Assembly: GCA_033439255.1 (NCBI GenBank) | Contig: CM065878.1 | Location: forward strand, 2,790,001 to 2,854,000 | Length of the DNA: 64,000 nt | Source of the DNA: Hericium rajendrae | Lineage: Eukaryota; Basidiomycota; Agaricomycetes; Russulales; Hericiaceae | Direction: 5' to 3' | Shown: piece by piece, positions 25,257 to 44,115 of the stretch | How positions within the stretch are numbered: the stretch's first letter is position 1 | Layout of the letters: each line of letters starts with the position of its first letter | Notes under the pieces: model-generated | Seen by the model: only the letters and a program-made list of their open reading frames with translations | What the model was told of the DNA's origin: nothing | Database searches by the model: none | Made by a program: the position numbers and the translations under genes

Positions 25257-28095
25257 ATGGCGGACAAATACGCCGCTCCTTCTCTGTCTGATGATGGGGA
25301 ATTGAGGCATCGCAGATCTCTACCTGATGTCCCGCAAGACGTCGATGACGATGAGCTCATGGCCCATTTCAATGACCCTAACTATGACTTCGACGCGGCG
25401 AGCTCCACCGCTAACGTCTCGAACGATAATGTCGAGCTCGGCAAGAAGCCTGCAGGTCGCTGGTCCAGCTCATCCATGTCCGCCGGGACGGATGCGGAGA
25501 CGGACACAGCTAGCCAGTGGGACTCTTCGCGCGTGGGGGAGTCGAAGCCCAACTTGGTTTCGGAGGTCGCTACTTATGACGAGTGAGTCCCAGTCCATTC
25601 TGTTCGTATTGAAGCTTATTCCGTGTCAGTGAATCACCATACCCGGAAGTGCGAGCAGCGGTGTCAAATACTGACGACTCTTCAATGCCCGTCAATACTT
25701 TTCGAATGTAGATCCTTTTCATCCTTTACATTGCGATTAACAACTCATCGGGCGTGTTTAGGTGGGTTATCGGACTTGTGCTCTCAGCAGTCATCCCTGC
25801 ATTCAACACCGTGTTTTGGCTTCGATGTACGTTATGGGTTCCTTTTGCTTACCATCGATCAGGTCTTGACCTGCTTCACAGATCCAAGTGTTATCATCAA
25901 CTCCCTCTTCATTCAGTTGGTTACCCTACCCCTCGGAAAGCTATTCGAGAAGATCCTCCCGACGTGGCGCATCACCGTGTTCGGCTATGGCATGTCGCTC
26001 AACCCCGGACCGTTCAACATCAAGGAGCACGCTCTTATCGCCGTAATGGCGAACGTCGTCGTGTATGGCGCGCCCGTCACAGACGTCATCGCAACCCAGG
26101 AGATGTTCTACAACACTCCGTGGGCTATCGGACGTCAGTTCGTCCTTGGTCTAGCCATTCAGCTCATGGGTTTCTCCTTCGCTGGCATGGTTCGACAGTT
26201 CCTTGTTTGGCCATCAAGCATGATTTGGCCCGGTGTCCTCGTTCGTTGCGCAATGCTTAATACGATGCACAAGAATTACGGCAAGAAGGAGACGAAGCAC
26301 ATTTCTCGCGAGAAATTCCTTTTCCTCGCCTGTCTCTGCAGTTTCATCTGGTATTGGGTGCCCGGCTTCTTGTTCACCGGCCTTAGTGTCTTTAACTGGG
26401 TCTGCTGGATCGCGCCGAACAACATCGTGGTGAACAGTCTGTTCGGCTACGTCAACGGCCTTGGCATGGGCTTCTTTACCTTCGATTGGGCCATGATTTC
26501 GTACATCGGCAGCCCACTTGTTGTCCCTGTGCGTGTGATTCTCATTATTTCGTGTGCAGAAGTCTGACCTTTTTCGCCTCACAGTGGTGGGCTCAAGTCA
26601 ACGCATGGGTATCGTTCGTATTCTGGATCTGGTTGATTATTCCGATCCTTTGGGGTATGCTCTCATCATCATTCAACGTAGCGATGATCTGACCTCGTCT
26701 TTCACAGCGAAGAATGTATTCTACTCCAAATTTATGCCAATCTCCACGCCTCAGTCTTTCGACAATACCGGGATGCCTTACAACATCACCAACGTGATTA
26801 CGGACGGCATTTTCGACCAGAAGAAGTATGAGCAATACTCTCCAATGTATCTATCTATCACGTTCGCCATTACGTATGGCACCGTCTTCGCGTCCTACAC
26901 GGCCGTTGTGGTTCACACATTCTGTGAGTGAAACTGCACTTCTTGCTGTCCACGCCCATATTCATCGCCCTTCAGTATGGTATCGTAACGACATCGCTCG
27001 TCAGTTTAGGCGCTCTCTGGGCGATGAACGCGACGTGCATGCCCGCTTGATGAAGGTCTACCCGGAGGTGCCTCGTTACTGGTTCATCGCGCTCGGCATC
27101 ATCTCCTTCGTCCTAGGTGTTGTGGGCAATGAGATCTGTGACACGAAGCTTCCTGTTTGGGGCTATATCATCGGTCTCCTCATCGCGATAATCTTCATCG
27201 TCCCCCTCGGCATGGTCCAGGCTATCACCAATCAACTCTTCACCCTGAACGTCCTGGCAGAGGTGGTGTCCGGATACATGCTTCCCGGACGTCCCCTGGC
27301 CACCATGGTGTTCAAGCAATTCACACACACTACATCACAGCAAACCCTTTACTTCGTCAGCGATCTCAAGATGGGCCATTACATGAAGGTCCCGCCACGC
27401 ATGATGTTTTTGGGCCAGGTCATAGCGTCCATCGTAGCCGTCTTTTCCTCTATCGCAGCCCAACAATGGGCATTCGACAGCATCCGCGACGTCTGTACAT
27501 CCGGTCAGCTGGACATGTTCACTTGCCCGGGTCTCCATACCTTCGGAACGGCCTCCCTCATTTGGGGAGGTATCGGCCCACAGAGGCTATTTGCCCCTGG
27601 CACGATGTACGTATCATTCTGATTCATTATATTGTGCACATCCTGACCATGTTTGCCAGCTACTATCCCCTCGTGTGGTTCTTCCTCATGGGTGCCCTTC
27701 TCCCCATCCCCCTCTATTTCATCGCGAAACGCTTCCCTCGATCAAACTGGCGCTATGTCCACATCCCGGTTGCGCTCAATGCACTCAGTCAAGTACCTCC
27801 CGCCAATGGCATCAACTTCTCGTCGTGGATCATCGCGGGCGGGATCTTCCAATGGTACATGCGTCGCCGCCACTTCCGCTGGTGGATGCGTTACAACTAC
27901 CTCCTTTCGTCCGGCTTGGACGCGGGAGTTATCTTCGGCCTTATATGCATATTCTTCTTTGTGCAGCTTCCGAAGAACATGATCCAGCTCAACTGGTGGG
28001 GGAACACCGTCTGGCAAAACACGGCCGACGCACAGGGTATTCCATTAGCTACCGTTGCGCCAGGCGGGTTCTTCGGGCCAGCGACATGGTCTTGA
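25257..28095 (+). CDS. Oligopeptide transporter (OPT family)
   Basis: This is a proton-coupled plasma-membrane transporter for small peptides or glutathione. The N-terminal 110 residues are acidic, cytosolic and Ser/Asp-rich (MADKYAAPSLSDDGELRHRR). The polytopic core follows. Family motifs are easy to see: TFRMWVIGLVLSAVIPAFN, SLFIQLVTLPLGKLFEKILP, FGYGMSLNPGPFNIKEHALI (the OPT signature NPGPFN-x-KEH), IGRQFVLGLAIQLMGFSFAG, GLGMGFFTFDWAMISYIGSP, PLATMVFKQFTHTTSQQTLY, KMGHYMKVPPRMMFLGQVIA and INFSSWIIAGGIFQWYMRRR. About a dozen or more membrane spans and roughly 820 residues match the peptide-transporter branch rather than the shorter yellow-stripe-like branch. Seven or so introns are needed. 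The stop TGA is at 28093-28095 after FFGPATWS. Confidence 0.95.
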
Positions 28096-43677: not shown

Positions 43678-43684
43678 TTATATA
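43678..43684 (+). promoter_or_regulatory. TATA box of the secreted-peptide precursor gene
   Basis: TTATATA lies 53-59 bp before the ATG at 43737, the normal place for a TATA box in a fungal gene with a short leader. The leader between them is pyrimidine-rich (CTCCCCACCCCTCCTCAC), as in strongly expressed fungal genes. Confidence 0.65.
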
Positions 43685-43736: not shown

Positions 43737-44115
43737 ATGAAATTCTTCGCATATACCCTCTCAATTGCTCTCTCCCTCCTCACCGTCGCCTCCGCTCTCC
43801 CCGTACGTCTACTACCTTTCTGCTCTCGGTCATCTTCGTCCTTATCACTGACTCTCCCACCAACAGATACCGGAGGCCGCTGAGGTCGCTCGCGAAGTGG
43901 ATCTAGTACGCCCGCTCCTTCCCGCCTCTACTTCGCACCAGTAATCATCTCCTCTCGTGTAGCGTGCAATTGGTGGACAGTCTATGGATTGGAGAAGGGC
44001 AATCGGTGGACAGTCTATGGACTGGAGACGGGCAATCGGTGGACAGTCGATGGACTGGAGACGGGCAACCGGTGGTGGAGGCGGAGGTTCGACCGACTGG
44101 AAGAGGACAGACTAA
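43737..44115 (+). CDS. Secreted repeat-peptide precursor with Kex2 sites (alpha-factor/KEP-like)
   Basis: Three exons encode 85 residues. Exon 1 (43737-43802) is a signal peptide, MKFFAYTLSIALSLLTVASA followed by Leu-Pro. Exon 2 (43867-43905) is an acidic spacer, IPEAAEVAREVDL. Exon 3 (43963-44115) begins with Arg and then holds three perfect copies of AIGGQSMDWRR and a diverged ATGGGGGGSTDWKR, ending Thr-Asp and TAA. Each copy ends in Arg-Arg or Lys-Arg, the recognition site of the Golgi protease Kex2; Kex1 would then trim the basic residues, releasing AIGGQSMDW three times and a Gly-rich relative once. Introns are 64 bp (GTACGT to CAACAG, with CTGAC branch site) and 57 bp (GTACGC to GTGTAG). 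If the second is retained, the protein stops after REVDL plus 13 residues. There is no CaaX end, so it is not a basidiomycete lipopeptide pheromone. No Tyr or Cys occurs in the repeats, and no UstY-type oxidase lies nearby, which argues against a dikaritin RiPP. The role is unknown; signalling or toxicity would be guesses. Confidence 0.8.
43966..44106 (+). repeat. 33-bp coding tandem repeat (three copies plus a 42-bp diverged fourth)
   Basis: Copies lie at 43966-43998, 43999-44031 and 44032-44064, with a longer relative at 44065-44106. Each encodes one peptide unit ending in a dibasic pair. The first three differ at four codons, all synonymous (ATT/ATC, TCT/TCG, GAT/GAC, AGG/CGG). Confidence 0.92.

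Follow-up and report, generated by a model that had tools for sequence, protein, structure and literature searches.

A predicted KEX2-processed repeat protein with Asp-Trp-ending units in Hericium rajendrae

Introduction

What does a short spliced gene containing a 33-nt tandem repeat encode in Hericium rajendrae (Russulales, Hericiaceae)? The gene lies in a stretch of 64,000 nucleotides on contig C1, hereafter the window. A first-pass annotation of the window, made from the letters alone, had read it as an unrecognised secreted multi-copy precursor of alpha-factor design, cut by Kex2. KEX2-processed repeat proteins (KEPs) have been surveyed across fungi, with a mean of 5.30 per Basidiomycota strain (PMC6339444, PMC7329392), and the main text of both surveys contains no occurrence of "Hericium". 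The gene itself was indeed unrecognised, but basidiomycete KEPs, including those with -AADW units, have been published (PMC6339444, PMC7329392, PMC9769878). Here we describe the gene, its relatives and the processing genes of the genome, and weigh the alternative readings of its product.

Results

Gene structure and predicted precursor

The gene was modelled on the + strand at 43737-44115 of the window as three exons, which join to 258 nt encoding 85 aa and a stop. The features are as follows.

43679..43684, + strand: candidate TATA box TATATA, 58 nt 5' of the ATG, by consensus only
43737..43802, + strand: exon 1, signal peptide MKFFAYTLSIALSLLTVASA (by inspection) followed by LP
43803..43866, + strand: intron 1, 64 nt, GT..AG, phase 0, junction residues (I/V) as in the H. 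alpestre protein P0001
43867..43905, + strand: exon 2, acidic pro-segment IPEAAEVAREVDL
43906..43962, + strand: intron 2, 57 nt, GT..AG, phase 0, junction residues as in P0001
43963..44115, + strand: exon 3, Arg, three AIGGQSMDW-RR, ATGGGGGGSTDW-KR, TD and stop
43966..44064, + strand: three perfect 33-nt units (AIGGQSMDWRR), with four variable positions, all silent
44065..44106, + strand: fourth, diverged unit ATGGGGGGSTDW-KR

The precursor thus reads, in order, MKFFAYTLSIALSLLTVASA, the pro-segment LPIPEAAEVAREVDLR, three AIGGQSMDW-RR, ATGGGGGGSTDW-KR and TD. Its acidic pro-segment is short and closed by one Arg, and a Pfam search of the whole protein gave no match. In-frame stops enter if either intron is retained. 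Both introns are supported by the annotated protein of Hericium alpestre, itself a gene prediction, which has the same residues at both junctions. This model agrees with the first-pass annotation in the layout (signal peptide, acidic spacer, three perfect units and a fourth with KR), in the two introns of normal size and in the TATA box, placed there 53-59 bp upstream. However, the mass of about 978 Da that it gave for AIGGQSMDW was wrong; the computed monoisotopic mass is 963.41 Da (MH+ 964.42; Met-oxidised 979.41, MH+ 980.41). For ATGGGGGGSTDW, the computed MH+ is 1022.417.

Repeat array

TRF reported the 33-nt unit in 3.3 copies (score 185), the top of the five tandem arrays listed in the window. 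All four dibasic sites of the precursor close a unit, and all four units end in -DW. We scanned the six frames of the window for open stretches in which a 6-mer with a following [KR]R recurs three times or more within 200 residues; the array of this gene was the sole match, and such an array appeared in 0 of 60 windows simulated with a first-order Markov model. The three perfect units differ at four bases, and all four differences are silent, while 22 of 99 single changes could be silent. The chance of silent-only differences is then ca. 0.0024 if all changes are equally frequent, a rough value that ignores mutation bias.

The part of the unit coding for QSMDW forms an inverted repeat (CAGTC/GACTG, by eye) in exon 3 (43963-44115), and the predicted folding of exon 3 RNA beat 200 shuffles (z -3.69). 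The fold most likely just reflects the repetition of the unit, and the inverted repeat and the folding may favour copy-number change in the array.

Orthologue in Hericium alpestre

When the window protein was used as the query, one relative was found among 832 candidates, namely EWM64_g3828 of H. alpestre (P0001; 63 aa; E 1.4e-31), an annotated gene prediction. The two proteins have the signal peptide, the spacer and both core types in common. However, EWM64_g3828 has one AIGGQSMDW in place of three and is shorter by 22 residues, exactly two units; apart from these units, they differ by a single I/V change in the spacer. The copy number is therefore not conserved between these two Hericium species. 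The first-pass annotation would have given up its reading if no homologue with a conserved repeat existed: the core sequence is kept in H. alpestre, but AIGGQSMDW is present there only once. It had also held such a gene to be too small for standard gene callers, which is contradicted by the annotation of this orthologue.

We considered whether the single copy could result from a false GT-AG intron removing two units. This needs an AG that is immediately followed by GT within the perfect units, and AGGT occurs in exon 3 of the window gene only in the fourth unit. Assuming that the H. alpestre DNA is similar, a real copy change or a collapse in the assembly remains.

Other proteins with -DW units

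With a query assembled from Lentinula and Pleurotus peptides in the literature, four proteins (P0002-P0005) were recovered from 1059 candidates, including P0002 and P0004 of Lentinula and P0005 of Pleurotus pulmonarius. The repeats SAADW-KR and SGVAADW-RR occur in the Lentinula and Pleurotus proteins. A profile search with the window protein and P0001-P0005 gave at least 10 matches among the 7995 candidates scored, comprising five seeds and five new proteins: P0006 (E 1e-11), P0007 of Mycena floridula (E 3.5e-3), P0008 (E 0.02), P0009 of Pluteus cervinus (E 0.43) and P0010 (E 9.5). The matches to P0008-P0010 were weak. Precursors with -W-[KR]R were thus also found in Mycena, Pluteus, P0006, P0008 and P0010.

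Each of the 11 proteins (the window protein and P0001-P0010) has one or more dibasic sites immediately preceded by -DW. Of the 47 dibasic sites in the whole set, 38 come after W and 32 after DW, a count that is partly circular, since the profile that collected P0006-P0010 already contained -DW. Seven of the 11 (the window protein, P0001-P0004, P0006 and P0007), which include two pairs of close relatives, have a pro-segment that begins with AxP and whose last residue, immediately preceding the first core, is a single Arg. This recurrence suggests a monobasic KEX2 cut. The Pluteus protein has AxP and the single Arg, but with extra sequence before its first -DW core, and P0005, P0008 and P0010 depart from the pattern. 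The Pluteus protein and the fourth unit of the window gene have GGGGGGSTDWKR in common, half of which is glycine.

Across a short repetitive sequence, the window protein showed 23-35% identity to the Lentinula and Pleurotus genes. Common descent with these genes is uncertain, because the window protein as a lone query matched only P0001.

We also searched the H. rajendrae genome (46,767,965 bases in 19 contigs) for -DW repeats. The first pattern gave seven matches, three at the window locus and four elsewhere, against seven in the reversed control. Three of the four matches elsewhere were in frame and open, and on inspection none of these had the KEP layout: two fell within a single GC-rich minisatellite-like sequence on C3, and the third was in a 49-residue open stretch. 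This minisatellite-like sequence is present as two GC-rich copies (L006 and L007, at 2.324 and 2.430 Mb), ca. 106 kb apart. A second pattern gave 22 matches against 12 in the reversed control; 15 of the 22 were in frame and open and may include further -DW KEPs. The Pluteus protein matched the genome once and weakly (E 0.196), which looks like chance; this search was insensitive, since it missed the window gene itself.

Processing genes

Peptidase_S8 and P_proprotein exons of KEX2 type lie adjacent and on the same strand at ca. 766 kb of C12, and three other frames at this locus had no match. There were 36 matches to S10 carboxypeptidases in the genome, among which KEX1 was not singled out. 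A gene of the DPP IV family, to which STE13 belongs, was found on C4. None of the XA/XP dipeptides cut by STE13 follows a dibasic site in the window precursor, whose units begin with AI or AT.

Gene neighbourhood and mating-type genes

We compared 40 of the 215 window ORFs of at least 100 aa with Pfam. Upstream of the KEP gene, the order was an OPT transporter gene (25.6-27.6 kb), a Prp19-type WD40 gene, SGTA, Myb and a WD40 gene; downstream, it was MCM3 (45.5-48.3 kb), RINT1/TIP1 and a TFIIIC-like gene. The OPT oligopeptide transporter gene (25587-27619), ca. 16 kb upstream of the KEP gene, is probably unrelated to it. No tailoring enzyme was found among these 40 ORFs.

All 18 STE3 matches were on C2 (4.21-4.25 Mb), and the window is on C1. 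Of two homeodomain matches, one was on C3; the other, next to an M3 peptidase gene, was at 2.085 Mb on C1, ca. 745 kb from the KEP gene. An M3 peptidase gene is the usual neighbour of the A locus. We reject a basidiomycete mating pheromone, since the precursor ends in KRTD with no CaaX, the STE3 genes are on C2 and the homeodomain genes do not adjoin it. The first-pass annotation had likewise set the product apart from the CaaX pheromones.

Discussion

A -DW KEP and its probable processing

The window precursor is very probably a KEP of the -DW kind. This reading, which the first-pass annotation had reached from the layout, is well supported by the architecture, the silent-only divergence of the units, the Hericium orthologue and the -DW KEPs with detected peptides in other Agaricomycetes. 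As far as these searches go, it appears to be the first -DW KEP in Russulales. The string GGQSMDW was not found in a literature search. Peptides detected by mass spectrometry in fruiting bodies include SGTGEASAADW, MSGVAADW, LSGVAADW and SGVAADW (PMC9769878), and the string VAADW also occurs in a food review (PMC10417677).

From the open spliced structure, the repeats, the orthologue, the Agaricomycete proteins of the same design and the KEX2-type and S10 matches, we infer that the gene is transcribed and that its product is processed, secreted and used in signalling. The signal peptide would bring the precursor into the ER; KEX2 would cut after RR and KR and probably also after the single Arg closing the pro-segment. 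When C. cinerea KEPs were produced in Pichia, some products were apparently cut after a single Arg (PMC9769878). Trimming of the basic residues by KEX1 would then yield three linear AIGGQSMDW peptides and one ATGGGGGGSTDW for secretion. Their likeliest role would be in extracellular signalling, either inside the mycelium or to other organisms. Six C. cinerea KEP knockouts were described as having no apparent phenotype, and synthetic KEP peptides had no antibacterial activity in the assays of that study (PMC9769878). We have good confidence in the reading as a whole, namely a -DW KEP cut by KEX2 and KEX1 into linear secreted peptides that probably serve as an extracellular signal and not as a mating pheromone.

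Alternative readings

AIGGQSMDW could instead act as ligand on a STE2-like receptor of the fungus itself, as in an alpha-factor system, which we consider very improbable. Ascomycete alpha-factor precursors likewise have a signal peptide and repeats cut by KEX2, a cut that is presumed for the window protein. The genome had one STE2 (PF02116) match on C8 (2,247,399-2,247,881), which reached 28.5 bits in the exon search, above the cut-off, and a four-exon candidate model of this gene matched STE2 alone in Pfam (profile 37-254 of 280). However, the spliced model scored 21 bits, below the curated cut-off of 27.2, its exon 1 alone scored 22.6 bits, two other open frames had no match, and the exon-search match passes through one stop. 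A phmmer search of the candidate against solved structures returned no STE2, and STE2-like receptors were restricted to Ascomycota in a survey of 1357 fungi (PMC12842992). The precursor and the candidate are on separate contigs. The candidate (L013:1387-2661, C8 at ca. 2.247 Mb) is hydrophobic, receptor-like and encoded by four exons, and we regard it as a weak candidate for a STE2-like receptor. The precursor also differs from alpha-factor in lacking the STE13 motif, in its core sequence and in its distance from mating-type genes, and a STE2 partner is at most putative. The alpha-factor design proposed in the first-pass annotation is thus right in part: the layout fits, but the STE13 dipeptides are missing and the matches to STE3, homeodomain and M3-peptidase genes lie elsewhere.

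In a variant to which we likewise give little credence, mushrooms would have an alpha-factor-like system outside mating, in which -DW KEP peptides act on a diverged STE2-like receptor. If this were true, a STE2-like receptor class would exist in Basidiomycota, where it is reported to be absent.

A structural or surface-acting product, or a small secreted protein that stays unprocessed, has a similarly small probability. KEPs of the first sort exist, such as Rep1 of U. maydis (as described in PMC9769878). However, the core of the window gene is short (nine residues) and contains Gly, and each of its four dibasic sites closes a unit.

Cyclisation of the cores by UstYa-type oxidases, as in dikaritin RiPPs, is very improbable. 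Dikaritin (ustiloxin-type) precursors resemble the window precursor in their layout of repeats cut by KEX2, a cut that we presume here, and a DUF3328 gene is among the 15 nearest genes for 103 of 1680 Basidiomycota KEPs (6.1%) (PMC7329392). In contrast, the cores of the window gene contain no Tyr, and neither a UstYa-type gene nor any other tailoring enzyme was matched among the 40 window ORFs compared with Pfam. The genome search for UstYa (PF11807) gave no match, although it had no positive control and so does not establish absence.

Although 33-nt tandem repeats may arise without selection and the short inverted repeat of the unit may favour copy changes, a chance open frame across repeated DNA is extremely improbable in view of the signal peptide, the spliced frame, the silent-only differences, the orthologue and the simulations.

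Comparison with known -DW KEPs

Read as a -DW KEP, the gene extends this type to Russulales; peptides of the type are among those of basidiomycete KEPs that mass spectrometry has detected. The gene supplies an exact target mass, together with a pair of orthologues that differ in copy number.

The Lentinula edodes KEP 2599 (SGTGEASAADW, seven copies; P0002 and P0004) resembles the window precursor in its signal peptide, in AxP after it, in a short pro-segment that a single Arg closes, and in repeats of -DW followed by KR without the STE13 motif. It differs in the core sequence, which is 11 residues long (PMC9769878) against nine, and in having more copies; identity is 26% over a short repetitive alignment. 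The Pleurotus KEPs 1091723 and 1439342 (SGVAADW; P0005) also have a signal peptide and -DW-RR repeats. Their peptides were found in fruiting bodies. However, XA/XP dipeptides of STE13 precede their cores, whereas the window gene has none. Since these Asp-Trp-ending KEPs of Lentinula and Pleurotus are the nearest known proteins, the window gene is best regarded as an addition from Russulales to a known kind and not as a new design.
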